Under the pieces are notes generated by a model. The model saw only the letters and a program-made list of their open reading frames with translations. It made no database searches and was not told where the DNA came from. DNA of 64,000 nucleotides, from NCBI RefSeq assembly GCF_014207635.1, contig NZ_JACHIE010000001.1:496001-560000 (forward strand). The letters are read 5' to 3'. The stretch is from Acetobacter lovaniensis (GTDB taxonomy: Bacteria; Pseudomonadota; Alphaproteobacteria; Acetobacterales; Acetobacteraceae). Position numbers and translations under genes: made by a program. Below, one piece after another: positions 7,973 to 53,635 of this stretch. Each line of letters opens with the position of its first letter. Within the stretch, counting starts at the first letter, position 1.

Positions 7973-8863
7973 GTGACACTCCCCACACCAACATCTCCTT
8001 CAGTGGTCCTGACCGAGCAAACGGATGCGCCGCGCCCACGCCACCGCAAGCGGCGTGTGCGCAACAAAAGCCGCGGCCCTTCCTTTAACCGCCTGATTCC
8101 CAACATTCTGACAATGCTGGGGCTTTGCGCGGGCCTGATGGGCATGCGCTTTGCCATTGAAGGACGTTTTCAGGCGGCTGCGGCAGCATTGCTCATTTCC
8201 GCCTTTATTGATGGGCTGGACGGGCGCATTGCCCGCATGCTGCGCGGGGCCACACGCTTTGGCGCGGAATTTGACAGCCTTTCCGACTTTCTGTGCTTTG
8301 GGGTAGCACCTTCGTTCCTGCTGTATTTCTGGGCGATCAAGGACAGTAACCGCTACGCTTTTCTGCCCTGCCTGCTCTTTACGGTCTGCATGGCGCTCAG
8401 GCTGGCGCGCTTTAACGCCAATCTGGATGGGGAAGAGCTGAAACCCAAATATGCCAGCAACTTTTTTACTGGCGTGCCCGCCCCTGCCGGAGCCGGGCTT
8501 GCGCTTTTTCCGCTCTTTTTGGGGCTGGAAGCACAAAAACTGGGCATAGACTGGCTTTACAACCTGACCCGCCTGCCATGGCTGCCGGACTTTACCTTGA
8601 CCAGCACCGCGCTGCTGCTGGTTTCCACCCTTCCGGTCTGGTCCTTTAAAAACTTCAAGGTTCCGGCCCAGTTTGTGCTGCCCCTTATGCTGGGGACCGG
8701 CATTTACGCAGTGGTGCTGGTGGCAGACCCGTGGGCCGCACTGGCTGCGGCGGGCGTGATCTATATGGTTCTGCTCCCCTTGAGCCGCCGCAGTTTTCTC
8801 AAACTGAAAAAAGCGGCTGAAGACCTGCATAAAGACGATACCGAAACGCCCTCATCCCCCTGA
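7973..8863 (+). CDS. pssA: CDP-diacylglycerol-serine O-phosphatidyltransferase
   Basis: Makes phosphatidylserine from CDP-diacylglycerol and serine, the substrate for the Psd enzyme encoded just upstream. The protein is a multi-pass CDP-alcohol phosphotransferase. The full signature D-x2-D-G-x2-A-R-x8-G-x3-D-x3-D is visible starting at DGLDGRIAR and ending DSLSD. A polar, Arg-rich N-terminus (RHRKRRVRNK) precedes the first membrane helix. The start is uncertain: I chose the GTG at 7973 because it avoids overlap with psd; in-frame starts at 7940 and 7919 would overlap psd. The last 12 bases overlap the convergent small-subunit gene of the complex described next. Confidence 0.93.
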   Translation: MTLPTPTSPSVVLTEQTDAPRPRHRKRRVRNKSRGPSFNRLIPNILTMLGLCAGLMGMRFAIEGRFQAAAAALLISAFIDGLDGRIARMLRGATRFGAEFDSLSDFLCFGVAPSFLLYFWAIKDSNRYAFLPCLLFTVCMALRLARFNANLDGEELKPKYASNFFTGVPAPAGAGLALFPLFLGLEAQKLGIDWLYNLTRLPWLPDFTLTSTALLLVSTLPVWSFKNFKVPAQFVLPLMLGTGIYAVVLVADPWAALAAAGVIYMVLLPLSRRSFLKLKKAAEDLHKDDTETPSSP

Positions 8864-8877
8864 GGGCGTTTCCTTTT
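8843..8877 (+). terminator. Terminator overlapping two convergent stop codons
   Basis: A perfect 12-bp stem (arms 8843-8854 and 8861-8872) with a six-base loop, followed by CTTTTT. The pssA stop codon lies in the right arm and the stop of the minus-strand gene lies in the left arm, so the hairpin is encoded inside both coding ends. The T-run favours termination of the + transcript. Confidence 0.8.
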
Positions 8878-9349
8878 TGCCGCCCTGCGCCGCACTCCCG
8901 AGCAGGGAGCACAGCCCATTCAGGATTTCCTGCGGGCTGGGTGGGCAACCCGTAATGGCCAGATCGACCGATACGCGCCGCTCCAGCCCCCCCATAACGG
9001 CATAATTTTCGCTAAATACGCCGCCATCCAGTGCGCAGGTGCCAATGCTGATAATGCCTTTGGGGTTTGGCATGGCCTCCCATGCCGCCTGCAACACAGG
9101 CGCCATGGTGCGGGTTAAAGCCCCGGTGACCAGCAGCACATCGGCCGAGCGGGGAGAGTTTACAAACCCGAACCCCGCTCCCTGCATGTCATACGGCAGG
9201 CAGGTCATGGCCTGTAGCTCCATGCCACAGCCACCACAGCCCCCCGTATCCACATGAAAAAGCAGCAAAGGCCAGCGCGGACCCAATGGTTTGCGCTTTT
9301 GCCGCTCTTTCCAGAACACCGTATTCATGACCGCGCGGATCAGCCCCAT
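8852..9349 (-). CDS. NuoB/HyfI-like iron-sulfur small subunit of a hydrogenase-related complex
   Basis: A 165-aa protein of the NuoB/HycG/HyfI family, which carries the N2-type 4Fe-4S cluster next to the large subunit. All four expected cysteines are present: CGGC (Cys38, Cys41), GTC (Cys105) and GCPPSP (Cys135). The CxxC spacing is that of group 4 hydrogenase-like small subunits, not the CC pair of complex I. It is the last gene of the six-gene operon, 36 bases after the large-subunit gene. Because the cluster ligands are intact the complex probably still moves electrons, although the neighbouring large subunit lacks NiFe ligands. The function is inferred from family and context only. Confidence 0.85.
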   Translation of the reverse strand: MGLIRAVMNTVFWKERQKRKPLGPRWPLLLFHVDTGGCGGCGMELQAMTCLPYDMQGAGFGFVNSPRSADVLLVTGALTRTMAPVLQAAWEAMPNPKGIISIGTCALDGGVFSENYAVMGGLERRVSVDLAITGCPPSPQEILNGLCSLLGSAAQGGKKETPSGG

Positions 9350-9385
9350 GACTGCCCCGCCTTGTACCCGTTCATGCCTGCTCCC

Positions 9386-10882
9386 TTAACCATCGAGTGC
9401 TGCTGCGTTCATACCGAGTGAGCAGGCCAGCAACGCGGCATCCTCCGCCTCATGGTTGGGCAGAGCCTGCTCAAACACCAGCAGGGCCGAGGTTTCAGGC
9501 TTGCGGCAAAAAGCCTCCGCCACACGGCCATGCGCCAGACGCACCCAGTACAGCACGCCACCCCATGGCCCTTCCACCAGCCCCGTTCCCTCCCCATCCT
9601 GCATGGACAGGGGAACCGTACCACCAGCATTCAACCCGATCCGGGCTGAAGCCAGGTCCAGCATGCGCAGGCTTTCCTCCATCTCATCCAGCAACAGCAG
9701 GGCGCGGTCTTCCGCCGTGCCGTTCTGCCTGCCCGATGTGTAACGCCACAGCCCGTCATATGCAGGCATCATGCGCCGACCATCGCAGTCCCAGCCTGCG
9801 GCCCGGGCTACGGGACCATCCAGCCCGATCCGCTCCAGATCATCGGCCAGAATACGCCCCACACGACCCAGCAGGGCAGAAAGACCGGGGTATTCACGCC
9901 ACAAAAGCACCAGTTGCGGGTAAGCCTTCTGCCCCAGTTCGTACAATCTGGCGCACAGATCCCCCATCTGCGTTGCGTCACGCACGGACAGGCCACCGGG
10001 GATGCAAACATCCATCAGCAACCGTGACCCGGTTATGGGGGCAGCCTCGGCCACCAGTTTTTCCCGCAGCGCCATACAGTGCGACGCCACAAGCTGCGCA
10101 CCCGCCAGCCGCGCCATACCGGCCAGAGTGTACAGGTGCTGGAACAGGCGCTCCATTTCCAGCAAAGCTACGCGCAGGAGTGCCACTTCGGCCTCGACCT
10201 GCGCATTGCAGGCATTTTCCACCGCCTGACAGAACGCAACCTGATGCGCCACGGAACTGCCCGCCGCAACGCGGCTGCTCAACCGGCAGACATCCTCTAC
10301 CCGCGCATGCCGTGAGCGGGCGGCAATGCCCCGGTGGGCATAGCCAGTCTGTGTTTCCGCATTGGCGACCAATGTGCCGGACAGGACAAGCCGCGTATAA
10401 AACGGTGGAGCCAGATCGCCCGTTGCAGGGCCACGCTCTTCCACCCGCCCCTTGGCGGCCGCCATGGCATCGGATGGCTGGAACGCCACAAGTCCCTTAC
10501 GCTGCCCGCCCCGACCGGGTGCGGCGCAAAGCGGTGGAGCAGCAGACCACACATCATGGTCAAGCAGGCAGCGTACATCCACCGCCCACATGGCTTCTGC
10601 CCCAAACAGGTCATAGATCGCCCGTTCGTACAGGCTGGCGGCAACCCGTGCGGGGGAAAGGGCAGGATAACGTCCCCCTTCCAGCGCCAGTGTTGCAGCG
10701 AGTGGGTGCCCATCGGGCAAGAACAGGGCATGCACATCCGCCCCATCGCACCACAGGCCGACAAAAGGCAGATCATCACGCTTGAGCATATCCACCATAT
10801 CGCGCCAGGCCAGTTCACCCAGCCGGAAGCGCCATGGGGTGGAGGTCTGTTCGCCTGCGTAAATCAGTGCGGCAACATCCAT
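9386..10882 (-). CDS. HyfG/HycE-like large subunit (NuoC-NuoD fusion) lacking NiFe ligands
   Basis: A 498-aa protein with a NuoC-like N-terminal part (ERAIYDLFG near 87-94) fused to a NuoD-like catalytic part (GYAHRGI near 180-186), as in HycE/HyfG. In true NiFe hydrogenases the active site needs two CxxC pairs. Here the first is CRLS (Cys199, Ser202), and the C-terminal DPCxxC is absent: the protein ends LLACSLGMNAAALDG. It therefore cannot bind the NiFe centre in the usual way. The start ATG (10882-10880) shares one base with the stop of the upstream gene; an upstream in-frame start at 10945 would overlap that gene by 64 bases and is unlikely. Best described as an Ehr-type (hydrogenase-related) large subunit. 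Confidence 0.85.
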   Translation of the reverse strand: MDVAALIYAGEQTSTPWRFRLGELAWRDMVDMLKRDDLPFVGLWCDGADVHALFLPDGHPLAATLALEGGRYPALSPARVAASLYERAIYDLFGAEAMWAVDVRCLLDHDVWSAAPPLCAAPGRGGQRKGLVAFQPSDAMAAAKGRVEERGPATGDLAPPFYTRLVLSGTLVANAETQTGYAHRGIAARSRHARVEDVCRLSSRVAAGSSVAHQVAFCQAVENACNAQVEAEVALLRVALLEMERLFQHLYTLAGMARLAGAQLVASHCMALREKLVAEAAPITGSRLLMDVCIPGGLSVRDATQMGDLCARLYELGQKAYPQLVLLWREYPGLSALLGRVGRILADDLERIGLDGPVARAAGWDCDGRRMMPAYDGLWRYTSGRQNGTAEDRALLLLDEMEESLRMLDLASARIGLNAGGTVPLSMQDGEGTGLVEGPWGGVLYWVRLAHGRVAEAFCRKPETSALLVFEQALPNHEAEDAALLACSLGMNAAALDG

Positions 10883-12015
10883 CAGAACGCCCCCAGCATC
10901 ATGGCCAATGGTACCAGAAAACCCATAACGGTCAGCACCGAGCATGCCACACGCCCGGCCATGTCATCTGGCCAGAACAGGCGGGCGGCCTCCCGGTCCG
11001 GCACGGCGCGCAGCACGGCGGCCAGAATGCCACACACGGTCAGCACCGCAACGGGCCATGCCCAGTCGGTCATGACAGACAGCAAAAGCAGGCACCCCAC
11101 AAACGGCGCACCGGGGGGAAAACAGGCCAGAACATTGATCGCCCAGCCCCGCCCACTGCGGTTCCCCCCCGCCAGGCACCAGCCACACAGGAACAGCAAG
11201 GCCGCAACATCCGCCTCCACGCCAACGGCCATAAGTGCCAGCGCGGACGGAAATGTGCGGAACAGCCTCTGCCTGTCCCCCGCACGGCCAGCAGCAGCCG
11301 TTAACCAGACCGAAATAAGGCCCGCCGCCACCAGAGCCATTTCAAACGCAGCACCACCATGCCCGCGCAGCCGCATGGCCAGCAGGATGGATGCCCCAGC
11401 AAACGGGAGAAACAGGAAGCTATCGTTCTCATCGCGCCAGAACTGACCAAACGGGGCAAGCCCGGTTAAAATAACAAGGCCACATGCCATCATCAGGCCC
11501 GAAACCGTGCTCCCCTGCGGCAATAACAGACCCGACAGCACAAGGACCGTTCCCACCGACCCGGTGCGGATTAACCCCCACCCGGTTTTGGCCTGCCCGG
11601 CCGGGCGCGTAAAAACAAACACTCCCCACGCCAGAGCCAGTTCCAGAATACCCAGCCCTACGGCCGGTTGAGGAGCAACACACGCAAGCCCCGCCAGAGC
11701 CGTGCAGACATGCGGCAGGCTACGCAACAGGCGGTCGGGCTGGATGCCGTTTTCCAGCACCAGCATCAGCAGGCCGAAAGCGAGCATGACCCGCCCTGCC
11801 CTTTGCACCGGATCATCATCCCACCCGCTGGCGCCATTCCCGACCGAGGGGAACATGAACACGACAACCGCAAGCCCGCAGCCGATGGCGGCCATCCATA
11901 TCGCGACTTCACGGCTATGGGCCGCAGGCAGCGCGGCCACAACCAGCGCACCAATAAAGGGCCACACAAACGCCAGTGCGGCCAGAAAAACCGTGGCTTC
12001 CATGCCAGCACTCAT
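10882..12015 (-). CDS. HyfF/NuoN-like membrane subunit, degenerate
   Basis: A 377-aa, very hydrophobic protein with about a dozen membrane segments. Its place in the operon, between the HyfE-like and HyfG-like genes, is that of HyfF. The antiporter-like signature of that family (PxHxWLPDA) is replaced by APFGQFWRDEND around residues 195-210, so the usual His is missing. Length is below the roughly 500 residues typical of HyfF/NuoN. The start at 12015 overlaps the upstream stop as ATGA; an in-frame start at 12108 would overlap that gene by nearly 100 bases. The assignment rests mainly on gene order and hydrophobic pattern. Confidence 0.65.
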   Translation of the reverse strand: MSAGMEATVFLAALAFVWPFIGALVVAALPAAHSREVAIWMAAIGCGLAVVVFMFPSVGNGASGWDDDPVQRAGRVMLAFGLLMLVLENGIQPDRLLRSLPHVCTALAGLACVAPQPAVGLGILELALAWGVFVFTRPAGQAKTGWGLIRTGSVGTVLVLSGLLLPQGSTVSGLMMACGLVILTGLAPFGQFWRDENDSFLFLPFAGASILLAMRLRGHGGAAFEMALVAAGLISVWLTAAAGRAGDRQRLFRTFPSALALMAVGVEADVAALLFLCGWCLAGGNRSGRGWAINVLACFPPGAPFVGCLLLLSVMTDWAWPVAVLTVCGILAAVLRAVPDREAARLFWPDDMAGRVACSVLTVMGFLVPLAMMLGAF

Positions 12016-12596
12016 GCGCCTGCCCCTCCGCCCGGCTGCTCCGTGCGCCTGCCCCGCTGGCCAGCAGCACGCACCGGCACAACACGCGGCATAATGCGGT
12101 GGATGCACATGCCCCCAAGGAGCAGCACCACCGCCCCGGCCAGAGCGGCCACACCCAGCACCACAGGCTGGTGGCCCAATACGGCGGACAGCAGAACACC
12201 TTCAATACAGGTTAAAAGCCCCGCCCACTGCCAGACCATGCTCTGGCGGCACACAACGGCCACAAGCCCGGCTACCATGGTGCATAGCCCTGCGGGGAAA
12301 ACCGTACTCCCCGCGTGATTACAGGCCAGCAGCAGCAAAACCATAAGGGCCAGTGCAAAAAACGGCACGGCGGCCCCTGTGCGTTCGTGTGTGGCATCGT
12401 GCTGGTAGCGGGTTAAAAAAAACGGCGGCAGGGCTGCAAACAGCAGCGCCAGCGTGGCCCCTGCCTCCTGCACCGGAGTAAGCCCATCCATCAGCATGGC
12501 CAGTGCAGTCACCACCCCGGCGGGCAGCAGAAAACCAACACCCCGCGCCACAACACACAAGGCCACCATAGGCACAAGAATGGCAACAAGGGTCAT
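12012..12596 (-). CDS. HyfE-like membrane subunit
   Basis: A 194-aa protein of about six membrane helices with a short Arg-rich C-terminus (RAAGQRGRR). Size and position match HyfE, the small NuoK-like subunit of hydrogenase-4-type complexes. It overlaps both neighbours by four bases (ATGA), which indicates translational coupling. I see no cofactor motif, and none is expected for this subunit. An exact family call would need a profile search. Confidence 0.6.
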   Translation of the reverse strand: MTLVAILVPMVALCVVARGVGFLLPAGVVTALAMLMDGLTPVQEAGATLALLFAALPPFFLTRYQHDATHERTGAAVPFFALALMVLLLLACNHAGSTVFPAGLCTMVAGLVAVVCRQSMVWQWAGLLTCIEGVLLSAVLGHQPVVLGVAALAGAVVLLLGGMCIHRIMPRVVPVRAAGQRGRRTEQPGGGAGA

Positions 12597-13606
12597 GGCG
12601 TATCCTCCATCCCTGCGGCGGAAGCCTGCGAATTATCCTGCAAAACGGCAGACACGCTGGTATCCTCCCGTTCAGCCAGAAAAGGGTGAACAGACCAGGT
12701 GACCTGCAAGGCCAGCACTCCAAGCAAAAAGATACTGACCAGCCTCACCCGCGCACGCCGTAGCGGGGGCAGCACAACCAGCCGGACCAGTGCAAGCAAC
12801 ACCGCAGCCAACAACAGCTTGGCACCCCACAGACCAAAACCGAGCATGCACTGGCTCAGCCATTGTTCCATGCCCCCATCATCAGGCAAGGCAAGGCTGC
12901 CCGGCCATGCCGTATCCAGCGCCAGCACAACCCATGCTACTTGCACACAGTCTGCCGCCCAGAGCCACATGGCCCGCTCCGGCCCGGCCAGCAGGGCAAG
13001 CTGGCCATCCTGCACAGGCCACGCCAATGCGGGCACTAAAAACAGGGCCACACCGGCCAGCACAAAAGGCGCGCCATCGGTTAGGGGGGAAAGTCCGTGT
13101 ACCGTGGCCAGAAAATCCGAAAAATCACGCGCGCCACAGAGCAGAAAAACCGGTACCAGTGCAGGCAGCAACAAAAATGCCCCCAGCATGCCGCGAGCGC
13201 CCTGCACGGCCCCCAGACCACCGCCCAGCACACAGGGGATGTTCAGGCACACCAGCGCCATAACCAGCACGCAGCAGATCAACAGCAGGCCCGGTGCTGG
13301 AAAACCCGGAACCACCAGTGTAAATGCCGGAACCAGCGCACAGCCCAGAACGGCCAGCACCAGTGCCGCCGCACAGGCAATACCGGCCAGTTGTGCACCT
13401 TCCTGCTGCAAGCGGGATCGACGAAACTGGTGCCAGATGTCTTGCCACCGCCCCATGACCGGAAAAGCCGATACCCCCGACAGGCGACCCGCCACCCGCC
13501 CGACAAGCCCGCTCAACCAGGGTGCTGCAAACACCATGGCCAGTGTTTGCAGGCCCAGAAGCGGCAAAAAGAGGAGGACCCAGCCCCAGGGAATGGAATG
13601 TGTCAT
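12593..13606 (-). CDS. HyfC/NuoH-like membrane subunit
   Basis: A 337-aa membrane protein. Near residues 52-66 it has MGRWQDIWHQFRRSR, the amphipathic segment typical of HyfC/HycD proteins, which dock the soluble arm. The acidic loop that marks NuoH/HyfC further on (around DPE..E) is reduced to GPERAMWLW, so the charged funnel residues are largely missing. Overlaps of four bases (ATGA) at both ends couple it to the HyfB-like and HyfE-like genes. The C-terminal 35 residues after the last helix are polar and acidic. Confidence 0.75.
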   Translation of the reverse strand: MTHSIPWGWVLLFLPLLGLQTLAMVFAAPWLSGLVGRVAGRLSGVSAFPVMGRWQDIWHQFRRSRLQQEGAQLAGIACAAALVLAVLGCALVPAFTLVVPGFPAPGLLLICCVLVMALVCLNIPCVLGGGLGAVQGARGMLGAFLLLPALVPVFLLCGARDFSDFLATVHGLSPLTDGAPFVLAGVALFLVPALAWPVQDGQLALLAGPERAMWLWAADCVQVAWVVLALDTAWPGSLALPDDGGMEQWLSQCMLGFGLWGAKLLLAAVLLALVRLVVLPPLRRARVRLVSIFLLGVLALQVTWSVHPFLAEREDTSVSAVLQDNSQASAAGMEDTP

Positions 13607-15336
13607 TTACCCACAAACAGCCCGGCCAGCAGCCCTGCCCCCATAAGAAGCAGGATCAGAACCATACCCTGCGCTTCGCACCAGCTTATGGCCACAAACA
13701 GGCAACGCCTTGCATATCGCCAGAAAACCTTCCCTCGGCGTGGCAGAATACCCCTTGCCCCCGGTACGCGCAGGGCCGTAACGGCCGCAGGCGTGGTAAA
13801 AAAACCGCGCCATGCTGGCCACAAAGGCAATAGTCCCCCGCCAGAGCAACCCTCCGCCACCGGTGCGGCACCATTCCGGTCTGGAGGAATCTCGTACACC
13901 GGAGCGCCCTGCCGCCATGCTGCAACCTGCCGCAGAGCCGGGGCAAATGGCATAAAACCAAACACCCGGACCAGCAGACCCGTGGCAAGCAGCACCAGCG
14001 CCACCCCCAGCAAAACCAGCAGTGGCGTCAGGCGGGCAGCGTGCCCTGCAAAATGCACTGTTGTCATATCCTGCCATGTTACGGGCAGCAGGGGCGGCCC
14101 CACCACCAGATGGTCCGCCACAAACAGCCAGGTTCCCGGCACAAAAGCCAGAACACTGCTCAGCACCGCGCATACCCACAAAGGCAGAACCATGGCAGCG
14201 GGGGCATCCGCCTCCTCCTGTGGAGCGGACAGAAGCAGCAGGCCCGCACGCACCAGAGCAGCACTCAACATCACTCCAAGGGCGACAAAAAACACCACCA
14301 GCATCACCGCCAGAAGCGCCATGACCGGCTGCGTGGCCTCGACCGAGTAACTGCCCCCCGCCAGAGCCGCCCACAGGACCGCAAACCCACCACAGGGTGG
14401 CAGAACCGAGCACTGGGCCAGCACCACACCCAGCAGGCACCGCGCCAAGCGGGTCTGTAATACGCCGCCCTCACCTGTGTCATTACGCTGAGCCACCCAG
14501 AGCATGCCCAGCAGCGCCACAACAGGGGCGCCCATGCCCAGCACCACGGTTGTACGAAACGTATCCGCCCCCCCCAGAGGGGAAGAAAGAGCCAGCACAA
14601 GGGCCAGCACCAGCATGCCGTACCAGCATGCCGCCAGCCCTGCCACAAGGGCCATGGCCTGCCGGTCGCGCATGGCCTGCGCAAGCCCTGCACACGCAAC
14701 CACACCCCCACAGGCCAGCAGCACCCCTTGCGACAGCAGGGGCAATTCCCCCACTTCGGCTAGCAGACGCCCAAGCAAAAACAGGCCAATACAGGCTGGC
14801 AGAACCCCCAACGGCCCCCGCTGCACGGCAATGGCCCACCCCACAAGCAGGACCATAACCCCCAAGAGCGGCACGGACAGGCTGCTATCGGCTGGAATAC
14901 AGGCAGGCAGCACGGCAAAAGGCAGGCACAGCCCACGCTTGCCATGCCCTGCCAGCAGCACGAGGGCCGTACCCGTAAACAGGCCAAACACCAGAGGCGA
15001 AAGAGCCAGAACCCCCAGACAGGCCAGCACACAGGCCACACCAGCCCGGCCCCGACCCACCAGCCCCCCCACACAGGCCAGAATGGCCAGCATGGGCAAA
15101 GACGGCCCATCCGCCCCGAATACGGGAAACCACCCGAATTCCCCTTCCACCCGAAAAGCGGCACCGGTCAGAGCGGTTACACCTGCAAGACCCCAGAGTG
15201 CCACCAGTATTTCGGCCCGCCAGAATGCCATGCCGCGCAGGACATTGTCCGGCAGCGCGGCAACAACACCCAGCGCCACCAGCACCAGAAGCAGACCACA
15301 AAGAACACAAGTGAGAAGAATGGAACCCAGCCCCAA
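13603..15336 (-). CDS. HyfB/NuoL-like membrane subunit, degenerate
   Basis: First gene of the operon: a 577-aa protein with about 16 predicted membrane segments, comparable in size to HycC (about 600). The PxHxWLPDAHxxAPTPVSA signature and the Glu of helix 5 that mark NuoL/NuoM/HyfB proteins cannot be found, so identity depends on length, hydrophobic pattern and gene order. The start is TTG at 15336, because an in-frame stop lies two codons upstream; no good ribosome binding site is visible, suggesting weak or coupled translation. The C-terminal cytosolic region (about 500-560) is basic. Compare the intact signature in the nuoM at 52115-53635. Confidence 0.65.
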   Translation of the reverse strand: MGLGSILLTCVLCGLLLVLVALGVVAALPDNVLRGMAFWRAEILVALWGLAGVTALTGAAFRVEGEFGWFPVFGADGPSLPMLAILACVGGLVGRGRAGVACVLACLGVLALSPLVFGLFTGTALVLLAGHGKRGLCLPFAVLPACIPADSSLSVPLLGVMVLLVGWAIAVQRGPLGVLPACIGLFLLGRLLAEVGELPLLSQGVLLACGGVVACAGLAQAMRDRQAMALVAGLAACWYGMLVLALVLALSSPLGGADTFRTTVVLGMGAPVVALLGMLWVAQRNDTGEGGVLQTRLARCLLGVVLAQCSVLPPCGGFAVLWAALAGGSYSVEATQPVMALLAVMLVVFFVALGVMLSAALVRAGLLLLSAPQEEADAPAAMVLPLWVCAVLSSVLAFVPGTWLFVADHLVVGPPLLPVTWQDMTTVHFAGHAARLTPLLVLLGVALVLLATGLLVRVFGFMPFAPALRQVAAWRQGAPVYEIPPDRNGAAPVAEGCSGGGLLPLWPAWRGFFTTPAAVTALRVPGARGILPRRGKVFWRYARRCLFVAISWCEAQGMVLILLLMGAGLLAGLFVGK

Positions 15337-28049: not shown

Positions 28050-29273
28050 TCACGCTCTAGCGAGGCTGTGCGCCGCCTGTGCCGCCTGTGCGCCGTGCTC
28101 AAGCCAGCTTTCACTGCCCATTTCCGCCAGACGGGAGGCTGTACGGGCAAATGCGTCCGACCCCTCGCCCTCGGTAAACAGTTTGTCAGGTGTGGCCGCA
28201 GCCGAGGCAAACAGCAGGTTTCCGTTGTCGTACAAGGCATCTATGAGGGTAATGAAGCGCCGGGCCAGATTGGCTTCGTCCTGTCCCATGCAGGGGATGT
28301 TGTCGATCACGACAACGGGAAAACGTCGCGCCAGCGCCAGATAATCGTTCGGTCCCAGCGGCTTTCCACACAAAGAGTTGAAATCGAACCGGCAGACCGG
28401 CCCCGCCGCCTGCTCCACCTCAAAACTGCGTCCAATAAACTCCAGCGTGACGGGCTGGAGGTTAGCCCCACAAGCCTGATGGACAAAAATACGGTCCAGC
28501 GTGGCATGGGCCTGCGCGTCGGCCGGGACCAGCCATGTCTGGCGGTCCTGCTCGCGCCCACGCCGGTAATCCCTTGGGGAATCCAGCTCGATCGTATCCA
28601 TCTCACGCCGGATAATGGCGATGAACGGCTTGAAGGCGTCCGCCCCCGGCCTGTTCTGGAACAGTTGGGAGGGTTCAGTGTTGGAGGTGGCCACAATCAC
28701 CACGCCATCGGCAAACAGGGCCTCGAACAGGCGGCCCAGAATCATCGCATCGGCAATGTCGTTCACCTGAAACTCGTCAAAGCACAAAAGCTGCACACGG
28801 GCTGCAATGGCTTTAGCCAGCGGGGGAATGGGATCGGCCATGCCGGGATTGGCAGCCTTGAGGGCGTGCAGCTTCTGGTGCACGTCCTGCATGAAGCGCA
28901 GAAAATGGATGCGCTCCTTGAGCCTGACAGGCGCACAGCTAAAAAACAGATCCATGACCATGGTTTTGCCACGCCCGACCCGCCCCACAATATAAAGTCC
29001 GCGCAGACGGTCCTGCGTGGGCTGCGCGGGCTGGCTCATCAGCTTTCTGGCAAGCCCCGCCAGAAAACCCCCGCTCCTGCTGGCAGGGCTGGCCGCCTGC
29101 GGCGCGCGCGCGCGCATGGTGGCAAGTTCACGCCACAACTGGTCCAGACGTTCGACCACACGGGCCTGATCCGGATCGCTCTTGATGTCCCCGGCTGCAA
29201 TGCGCTGCCGGTAAACTGCCAGAGGCCCCTGTGCGGTCGCAGCGGAGGCCCCGCTCGTGTTCATGTCTGTCAT
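28050..29273 (-). CDS. zapE: Cell division ATPase ZapE (AFG1 family)
   Basis: An AAA+-like ATPase of the ZapE/AFG1 family, involved in Z-ring constriction. The protein shows Walker A GRVGRGKTMVMD, Walker B LLCFDEFQVNDIADAM and sensor I VVIVATSNTEPSQLF. Length with the start at 29273 is 407 aa, near normal. The frame is open to 29399, but a start there would leave three bases to the divergent gene at 29403, so 29273 or 29264 is more likely. It lies 203 bases upstream of sucA on the same strand. Confidence 0.93.
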   Translation of the reverse strand: MTDMNTSGASAATAQGPLAVYRQRIAAGDIKSDPDQARVVERLDQLWRELATMRARAPQAASPASRSGGFLAGLARKLMSQPAQPTQDRLRGLYIVGRVGRGKTMVMDLFFSCAPVRLKERIHFLRFMQDVHQKLHALKAANPGMADPIPPLAKAIAARVQLLCFDEFQVNDIADAMILGRLFEALFADGVVIVATSNTEPSQLFQNRPGADAFKPFIAIIRREMDTIELDSPRDYRRGREQDRQTWLVPADAQAHATLDRIFVHQACGANLQPVTLEFIGRSFEVEQAAGPVCRFDFNSLCGKPLGPNDYLALARRFPVVVIDNIPCMGQDEANLARRFITLIDALYDNGNLLFASAAATPDKLFTEGEGSDAFARTASRLAEMGSESWLEHGAQAAQAAHSLARA

Positions 29274-29402
29274 AAGTTTGCCCGATAACGGCTTGGGGGC
29301 TCTTTCTGCAAGCATCAACACCTCTCCTAACCGTGTCGTGACAAGGCCGGAGAGCTCTGGTGCTGTTGGAAAGTCCAAAATACCCATATCGGAGTCCATG
29401 CC

Positions 29403-52114: not shown

Positions 52115-53635
52115 TTACCGGCTGGCCAGATGCAAAACCGGGTCATGGAGGGTGGAGGACGCCACGTTAACCGCGTTTGCGTGCACGGCCTGCATGATCA
52201 TCGGGTCAAAAATCCGGGTAAATGTGCCAGGGTGGACCCCCATCCACAACGTGACCACCGCCAGCGGCACCAGTACGGCGAGTTCACCCACTGTCAGGTC
52301 ACGCAGCAGGCCAACCGTGCCACGCACGCTGCCAAACAGAACCCGGCGATACAGCGAGAGCATGTAAACCGCCCCCATAATCATGGTGCCACCCGCCAGC
52401 AGCGCCACCCAGATGGAAACGTGAACAGCCCCCATAAGCACCAGCAGTTCCCCTACAAAGGCTCCGGTACCGGGCAGGCCCACATTGGCCATGGTGAACA
52501 GCATGGCCAGCAGGGCCAGCACAGGCATCTGCCGGGCAACACCGCCCAGAGCGTCAATATCCCGCGTTTCCGCCCGCCATGCCACTGCCGCCACACAAAA
52601 GAACAGGGCAGCAATCACCACACCGTGCGAGAGCATCTGGAAGATGGCGCCATCTATCCCCTCTGCCGTCAGGGTAAACAGGCCAACCGCGATCATGCCC
52701 ATATGGGAGAAGGAGGAGTAGGCGATAAGCCGCTTCATGTCCGTCTGGGCGAAAGCCACAAACGCTGCGTACAGAATGGCCACCACACCAAGGGCAAGCA
52801 CATAGGGTGCAAACTGGCGCACGGCGTCGGGGAACATCAGCACCCCAAAGCGTAGCAGCCCGTAAGCCCCTGTTTTGGACAACACGCCAGAGAGCATGGC
52901 TGATGCCGGTGTGGGGGCTTCCGTATAGGCGTCAGGCAGCCAGGCATGAAGCGGGAAAAGAGGGAGTTTGACGCCAAAAGCCAGCAGAAAAGCCAGAAGC
53001 AGCCAGCCCTGAAGGGAGTGCGAAAAACCGGCATGCATAAGGGCCGGGATATCCGTAGTCCCCGCATGCAGCCACATGGTGATCAGCCCGATCAGCATGA
53101 ACAGCGAGCCACCAAAGGTAAACAGGAAGAACTGAAGCGATGCCCAGACCCGCTTGGCCCCGCCCCAAATGCCAATCATCAGGCAGCCCGGAATAAGCGT
53201 TGCCTCGTAAAAAACATAGAACAGCACAAGGTCCTGCGCGGAAAACAGGCCAAACAGAGCTGTTTCCAGCAGCAGCATGGCGGCAACAAAGTCGCGCCCC
53301 TGCGTCTGCACGCTCCGCCAGCCTGCCCCAAGCGCCAGTGGCGTGAGAAAGGCGGTGAGCAGGATAAAGACCAGACTGATCCCATCCACCCCGGTATGGT
53401 AGGAAATACCATAATCGCTCAGCCAGCCTAGCCGGGTTTCAAATTGCAGGCCGGGCTGGCCGGGGTCAAAATCGACCCACATCAGCACGCTCAGCCCAAA
53501 CGTGAGGAGCGTAGTCCACAACCCCAGCCAGCGCGCCGTGCGGTCCCGCTCCGGTCCCTGACCGGGGCAAAGAAAGGCCGCAACCGCGCCTGCAAGGGGA
53601 AGATAGGTTATCAGCGAAAGCAGGATTGGCTGCAC
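52115..53635 (-). CDS. nuoM: NADH-quinone oxidoreductase subunit M, isolated from any nuo operon
   Basis: A 506-aa membrane protein with all the NuoM marks: the helix-5 region (LVLFYVFYEATLIPGCLMIG), HAWLPDAYTEAPTPASAMLSGVLSKTGAY, and YSSFSHMGMIAVG. It would be one of the proton-pumping antiporter-like subunits of complex I. No other nuo gene is next to it: upstream (minus strand) is mutL, 117 bases away, and downstream is a convergent exporter gene. The start is GTG at 53635, with an in-frame stop two codons upstream and no good ribosome binding site. Possible partners are a nuo cluster elsewhere or the hydrogenase-related complex at 8852-15336. Confidence 0.93.
   Translation of the reverse strand: MQPILLSLITYLPLAGAVAAFLCPGQGPERDRTARWLGLWTTLLTFGLSVLMWVDFDPGQPGLQFETRLGWLSDYGISYHTGVDGISLVFILLTAFLTPLALGAGWRSVQTQGRDFVAAMLLLETALFGLFSAQDLVLFYVFYEATLIPGCLMIGIWGGAKRVWASLQFFLFTFGGSLFMLIGLITMWLHAGTTDIPALMHAGFSHSLQGWLLLAFLLAFGVKLPLFPLHAWLPDAYTEAPTPASAMLSGVLSKTGAYGLLRFGVLMFPDAVRQFAPYVLALGVVAILYAAFVAFAQTDMKRLIAYSSFSHMGMIAVGLFTLTAEGIDGAIFQMLSHGVVIAALFFCVAAVAWRAETRDIDALGGVARQMPVLALLAMLFTMANVGLPGTGAFVGELLVLMGAVHVSIWVALLAGGTMIMGAVYMLSLYRRVLFGSVRGTVGLLRDLTVGELAVLVPLAVVTLWMGVHPGTFTRIFDPMIMQAVHANAVNVASSTLHDPVLHLASR

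Follow-up and report, generated by a model that had tools for sequence, protein, structure and literature searches.

An Ehr-type complex of Acetobacter without nickel-iron ligands, with an eroded membrane arm and catalytic pocket and conserved cluster cysteines

A six-gene operon of Acetobacter lovaniensis bears on the question of which parts of the complex I machinery a useful function requires. The operon occupies positions 8852-15336, minus strand, of the stretch analyzed here (the window: 64,000 nucleotides of contig NZ_JACHIE010000001.1, assembly GCF_014207635.1, positions 496,001 to 560,000), and it encodes relatives of the hydrogenase-4 subunits HyfB, C, E, F, G and I, called B to I below. 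A sequence-only reading had placed it among the energy-converting hydrogenase-related (Ehr) complexes and had proposed a new role rather than decay. That interpretation was supported in part: by its sequence the complex belongs to the published Ehr class, and its conservation agrees with a role, but one motif had been assigned to the wrong position and a second erosion, of the membrane arm and the catalytic pocket, had been missed. We consider it probable (roughly 0.65) that the operon encodes a selectively maintained, non-pumping, nickel-free, single-cluster membrane redox complex of Ehr ancestry.

The operon and its cofactor ligands

The six Hyf-like genes are tightly coupled, as had been proposed, with ATGA overlaps at B/C, C/E and E/F, TGATG at F/G, and a gap of 36 nt between G and I (Table 1); B starts with TTG, and TAG lies in frame two codons upstream. 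Small subunit I matched the Pfam family Oxidored_q6 (2.7e-27) and large subunit G matched Complex1_49kDa (2.3e-14), while B, C, E and F gave no meaningful Pfam match, C and E being assigned by iterated profile. Among solved structures, G and I come nearest in sequence to subunits of Escherichia coli formate hydrogenlyase (7z0s), and G is 98% identical to the large subunit of A. fabarum LMG 24244.

The lost ligands of G were located with two true Ni-Fe large subunits (L174 and L175), kept as separate controls, which carry RVCGICSAMH and DPCISC. Because HycE, L174 and L175 all place RVCGIC on RVAAGS of G, the columns of the first ligand pair are A206 and S209; those of the second are N492 and A495, and both controls have Cys in these columns of the same alignment. 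The first CxxC pair is indeed lost, but the CRLS to which its loss had been assigned (residues 199-202) is not the ligand site. The claim that no C-terminal DPCxxC exists was correct, as G ends in SLGMNAAALDG. The ligand pair is absent from all 30 large subunits in the family alignment and from every row of the pocket alignment except the two controls. G thus lacks the two CxxC pairs of group 4 Ni-Fe hydrogenases, in agreement with the earlier view that it would not bind nickel and iron. A difference in the length of the L1 loop between G and NuoD was considered and rejected, as both align without a gap.

Subunit I has its cysteines exactly where they had been reported, and all four are invariant in 17/17 aligned relatives and 22/22 close relatives. 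The description of I as an intact electron-transfer subunit therefore holds for the four cysteines, and we infer that they hold one [4Fe-4S] cluster. The first two form a CxxC, unlike the CC motif of cluster N2 in NuoB, which is present in the NuoB of the same genome.

No ferredoxin-like subunit (HyfA/HyfH, HycB/HycF) was found in the operon or the window, as previously noted; the sole CxxCxxCxxxC match in six frames of the window falls in an open stretch of 90 aa at 28900, with which a longer open reading frame (28050-29399) overlaps. Neither HypD nor a Ni-Fe large subunit is present within the window. The absence of maturation genes holds for the window but not for the genome, as HypD and the large subunits of two true Ni-Fe hydrogenases (PF00374) are encoded at about 3-23 kb of contig C16 (61 kb; L182, L183), with small subunits, cytochrome b, HypC, HypF and a response regulator recognized by eye. 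These genes are perhaps a sensed uptake hydrogenase, and the C16 hydrogenases account for the Hyp genes in this genome.

Table 1. Genes and diagnostic residues of the operon (window coordinates)
Feature	Position	Strand	Remarks
B, HyfB/HycC-like antiporter subunit	13603..15336	-	577 aa; aligned channel lysines lost; antiporter-type fold predicted
C, HyfC/NuoH-like membrane anchor	12593..13606	-	337 aa; without Pfam match
E, HyfE-like membrane subunit	12012..12596	-	194 aa
F, HyfF-like antiporter subunit	10882..12015	-	377 aa; single lysine; antiporter fold predicted
G, HyfG/HycE-like large subunit	9386..10882	-	498 aa; without Ni-Fe ligand pair
G residues 154-159, loop	10406..10423	-	Thr, Pro here; His, Glu in canonical Ehr and Ni-Fe controls
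G residues 206-209 (AAGS), columns of lost N-terminal CxxC	10256..10267	-	alignment
G W440, replaces canopy Arg (PRG motif)	9563..9565	-	alignment
G residues 490-495 (GMNAAA), columns of lost DPCxxC	9398..9415	-	alignment
I, HyfI/HycG/NuoB-like small subunit	8852..9349	-	165 aa; four cluster cysteines kept
I C38-C41, CxxC of cluster	9227..9238	-	alignment
I C105, cluster	9035..9037	-	alignment
I C135, cluster, GCPPSP	8945..8947	-	alignment

Erosion of the catalytic pocket and membrane arm

To what extent the rest of the machine is intact can be judged against canonical Ehr operons. With profile A1, 26 of 289 genomes of the class scored at least 330 bits, the next match being at 205 bits. Three of the 26 belong to Acetobacteraceae, and operons were read for 18 of the other 23 (L156-L173). 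Gene order is the same in all 18, each of which carries C, E, F, G and I; B is present in 17, L165 starting inside C. Their large subunits typically read RxSGDSTVA and NKSFNCSYSGHDL at the former Ni-Fe ligand sites. A survey of their neighbours, which rests on a simple gene caller, found no recurring ferredoxin subunit. This caller overlooks subunits where GC content is high, and the six subunits themselves were therefore traced with profiles run on open frames. A small gene resembling an XRE-type regulator directly precedes six canonical operons (e.g. L160, L166, L170), about 5.4 kb upstream of G.

PMC9474812, our source for residue roles, names the pocket residues common to the superfamily, and we linked HycE numbering to the HycE-G alignment by a constant offset of 12. 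The equivalents of H188, E193, R478 and D529 in G are T, P, W and G, and only that of H284 is kept. Among the 22 canonical rows (the 18 loci and four basal Acetobacteraceae), the H188, E193, R478 and H284 columns hold H, E, R and H in 22/22, and the D529 column holds N in 22/22. The 21 rows of the Acetobacter clade have T (19) or S (2) for H188; P (11), T (7), S (2) or A (1) for E193; G (19) or D (2) for D529; and W for R478 and H for H284 throughout. The 11 other acetic acid bacteria have all lost H188 and E193, with H284 kept in 7/11, and five intermediate rows have lost H188, with E193 and R478 each kept in 4/5.

The membrane arm follows a similar path. B and F of the basal locus L048 match PF00361 at about 1e-48, C of L048 and L049 matches PF00146, and the 18 loci outside the family match profiles of such subunits, whereas B and F of the window have no PF00361 match and C has no PF00146 match; Pfam likewise gave no match for F in three further acetic acid bacteria. 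Scored with profiles built solely from the loci outside the family, F reached 530-587 bits in L048, L049 and L052, then 208, 171, 155, 103 and 2 bits in L041, L044, L046, L045 and L040, and at most 17 bits in acetic acid bacteria. B scores were 598-649 bits, then 396, 387, 219, 200 and 144, and at most 60 in acetic acid bacteria. In the 18 loci and the basal Acetobacteraceae, B and F are thus still of antiporter type, and most catalytic residues of the superfamily are in place.

Conserved columns were counted against a canonical set of 21-22 sequences. The window keeps 39/163 of them in B, 24/102 in C, 15/65 in E, 42/176 in F, 77/164 in G and 50/73 in I, and for charged columns 5/29, 4/27, 4/13, 4/27, 33/53 and 7/15, respectively; the membrane arm is therefore the most changed part. 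Column by column, the conserved lysines of F survive in no more than 5% of 19 derived rows; those of B survive in none of 17 derived rows, one column (12%) excepted. An alignment-free count gave at least 6 lysines in 18/18 canonical F sequences and one (K143) in that of the window; among 20 Acetobacter F sequences, nine have none, seven have one and four have 2-9. L084 (a region without B, C and E) was left out of the invariant-residue counts, L100 and L036 also out of the F lysine and arginine counts, and the spurious F frame of L050 out of the canonical F set; the B frame of L051 was not recovered. The aligned channel lysines of B and F are thus almost wholly gone in the acetic acid bacteria read, and F is also short, with 377 aa against a canonical median of 482. 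Six F cysteines (C46, C112, C178, C280, C298, C308) are each conserved in 20/21 close sequences.

The antiporter shells of B and F are predicted to remain despite the residue loss. AlphaFold2 models from genus alignments had a mean predicted local distance difference test score (pLDDT) of 74.4 and a predicted template modelling score (pTM) of 0.78 for F, and 75.2 and 0.77 for B. Foldseek matched the F model to antiporter-type subunits (best E 1.7e-6), VIA-align superposed it on NuoL (7p7l_L; Z 31.6, root-mean-square deviation 3.6, 346 residues), and the best match of the B model was HycC (7z0t_C, E 1.1e-6). PDB searches with genus F and B profiles gave no match. As genus F aligns weakly with basal F by hhalign, its homology rests on fold, collinearity and gene order.

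The large-subunit tree groups the acetic acid bacteria in a single clade (20 rows, 100/100) within a graded series, on a stem of 0.67; several forks of the series fall below the 95/80 mark (92/86, 86/40, 91/90), and the tree carries a long-branch warning, L042 and L051 included. Channel and pocket residues fade stepwise within Acetobacteraceae while the Fe-S cysteines persist.

The Ehr class was reportedly founded in a review by Marreiros and colleagues in 2013. PMC6349859, PMC7894505 and PMC10284858 treat Ehr as a known class without assigned function, and coupling of redox chemistry to ion translocation is suspected in print. Like Ehr complexes, the operon has a large and a small subunit akin to those of group 4 Ni-Fe hydrogenases and complex I, lacks the Ni and Fe ligands, and encodes a membrane anchor and antiporter-like subunits (B and F by predicted fold, C and E by iterated profile), so the earlier assignment stands. 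The Acetobacter version additionally lacks the channel lysines of B and F and the pocket residues of the 22 canonical rows; with membrane arm and pocket stripped in this clade, it is not an ordinary Ehr complex, and the suspected ion coupling, which antiporter channel residues would support, does not fit it well. Compared with E. coli formate hydrogenlyase and hydrogenase-4 (Hyc, Hyf), its closest solved relatives by sequence for G and I and by fold for B, the operon has no Ni-Fe ligands, ferredoxin-type subunit or formate dehydrogenase. Respiratory complex I (NuoB, D, H, L/M/N) belongs to the same superfamily, but the operon has no NADH-oxidising N-module, and the genome has a separate nuo operon on contig C3.

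Some side observations concern these relatives. The nuo operon on C3 has nuoL and nuoN (partly identified by eye) 62 nt apart with no nuoM between them, and a normal nuoM-like gene (PF00361, 4.7e-75) stands alone beside mutL in the window (52115-53635, minus strand); it looks as if nuoM has moved out of the nuo operon, a second nuoM elsewhere not having been searched for. Control L174, from a 1.4 Mb genome of the class (G216), is a Ni-Fe group-4-like large subunit beside NuoE/F/G-like genes and pyruvate-ferredoxin oxidoreductase (by eye), and L175 (G347, 1.2 Mb) has the same large-subunit motifs.

Retention of the eroded complex

Erosion could reflect a complex on its way out, yet the large subunit was found in 48/49 genomes of the genus and in 46/46 of the better assemblies. 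All of 22 close loci yielded I and G, while F and C were each recovered from 21, E from 20 and B from 19. In the family, 123/150 genomes have a G match (E 1e-60 or better), although some in the lower tail (about 212-330 bits, partial matches) may be other group 4 relatives. HypD scored above the cut-off in 27/150 family genomes, and 98 of the 123 genomes with a G match, by lists crossed by hand, have none above it. The complex is also retained in genomes that lack a complex I marker: the NuoF domain is lacking in 12/150 family genomes, 11 of which match G, and among the nine of these that are at least 99% complete, eight keep G, all eight with a small subunit bearing the four cysteines. Two loci of one genus without the marker (L184 and L189, in G032 and G118) have a TonB-receptor-like gene (by eye) between G and I, with the small subunit about 4 kb further on.

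Ratios of nonsynonymous to synonymous substitution (dN/dS), by simple Nei-Gojobori counts against the four closest relatives (L081, L082, L083, L085), were 0.14-0.18 for B, 0.07-0.15 for C, 0.07-0.14 for E, 0.02-0.06 for F, 0.08-0.11 for G and 0.02-0.08 for I, pointing to purifying selection on all six subunits. The proposal of a role rather than decay is borne out by these ratios and by the distribution in the genus.

Alternative explanations and possible function

The main rival is a structural relic, a scaffold that would stabilise other respiratory proteins. Acetobacteraceae are reported in PMC10715153 to keep 'deranged' bc1 and COX1-like proteins that have lost their cofactor ligands, bc1 being proposed to stabilise complex I. 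The eroded pocket and membrane arm would suit such a role by analogy with these conserved respiratory proteins of the same clade. The complex differs from them in keeping its Fe-S ligands: the four cysteines stand in every small subunit aligned or read, unlike the bc1 ligands. As G is kept in eight of the nine near-complete genomes without a NuoF domain, complex I could not be the sole client of a scaffold, and kept cysteines together with retention without complex I weigh against a scaffold for complex I alone. We regard this explanation as unlikely, though less so than those below. In the main text of PMC10715153, Hyf does not appear and hydrogenase appears once, and no description of this complex in acetic acid bacteria was found in the open-licence literature, among the matches listed.

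Less likely still is an ordinary Ehr complex, a redox-driven ion pump that would use other residues, such as conserved arginines and Glu, instead of lysines. Some findings favour it, and others weigh against our main reading. Besides the antiporter fold predicted for F and B, arginines in predicted F helices (R72, R75, R98, R150, R217) are kept in 19-20/20 sequences and E125 in 14/20, and these could form another ion path, R150 being one helical turn from a lost lysine position. Lysines are not gone everywhere, as 3/20 Acetobacter F sequences have 5-9 and three from other acetic acid bacteria have 9-13; B of L037, among the three acetic acid bacteria put to Pfam, still matches PF00361 (3.7e-7), and R478 of the pocket is kept in 5/11 of the other acetic acid bacteria. 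Charged residues of the membrane arm were not lost much more often than others (B keeps 5/29 charged and 34/134 uncharged canonical columns), their loss being part of a general fast divergence of the membrane subunits, and the B and F alignments over that distance are weak (hhalign 81.6% and 16.5%). Channel mutants can also be mild: six HycC mutants still made H2 according to PMC9474812, and NuoL E144Q and K229A, which are reported to lower the activity of complex I, did little harm when tested in an Mrp system (PMC4938563). Even so, B, C and F carry other residues at nearly every invariant Lys and Glu of the canonical set, and F is shorter by about a hundred residues than the canonical median. 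The fixed charge of arginine makes it a poor proton relay, which also counts against such a pump.

A decaying operon heading for loss, very improbable in our view, would agree with the rapid divergence along the stem that leads to acetic acid bacteria and with a rise of dN/dS against three more distant genus members (B to 0.41, C 0.37, at near-saturated dS above 1), the latter being a further point against selective maintenance. Frameshifts across strains would be expected under decay, and split G frames do occur in 3/48 genus genomes with a match (G169, G175, G178), but all three are drafts, 86-92% complete, and an intact conspecific (L134) is known for G169 (A. okinawensis JCM 25146, identified by coordinates that match those of L143). 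The dN/dS of 0.02-0.18 against the closest relatives also argues against decay, as do two small genomes of the genus (G186, G187; 1.5-1.7 Mb) that retain all six genes. A working Ni-Fe hydrogenase with unusual ligands, suggested by HypD and true hydrogenases in the same genome and by a single Cys at the second L1 column in 9/21 Acetobacter-clade rows, has next to no probability, given the absence of the ligand pair outside the controls, the many G-bearing family genomes without HypD above the cut-off, and C16 hydrogenases that explain the Hyp genes.

For a non-pumping, nickel-free redox complex, a mechanism can be proposed. B, C, E and F would anchor the complex in the membrane and no longer take part in coupling. 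The cluster of I would receive electrons from a soluble one-electron donor resembling ferredoxin or flavodoxin and would pass them to a small acceptor, perhaps ubiquinone, in a remodelled pocket between the small and large subunits. The end use, the least certain step, may be dissipative electron disposal or membrane redox sensing. That the complex truly transfers electrons is a tentative proposal, and we give just under an even chance to the idea that a redox-driven pump became, stepwise, an Fe-S device of the membrane that does not pump, with the cluster site and six subunits under selection.

The Ehr class is already known, and what is new here is the second erosion, of membrane arm and pocket; no counterpart of such a function was found described in the superfamily in the open-licence literature, among the matches listed. 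In a cultivable, vinegar-making clade, the series begins with canonical Ehr whose antiporters are complete and ends with complexes that have no usual pump residues and no catalytic pocket. Purifying selection acts on the eroded form, which also persists in genomes lacking the complex I marker. These findings suggest that an ancient energy-converting complex has been recruited to a new task, and they could lead to a function for a widespread Ehr type.

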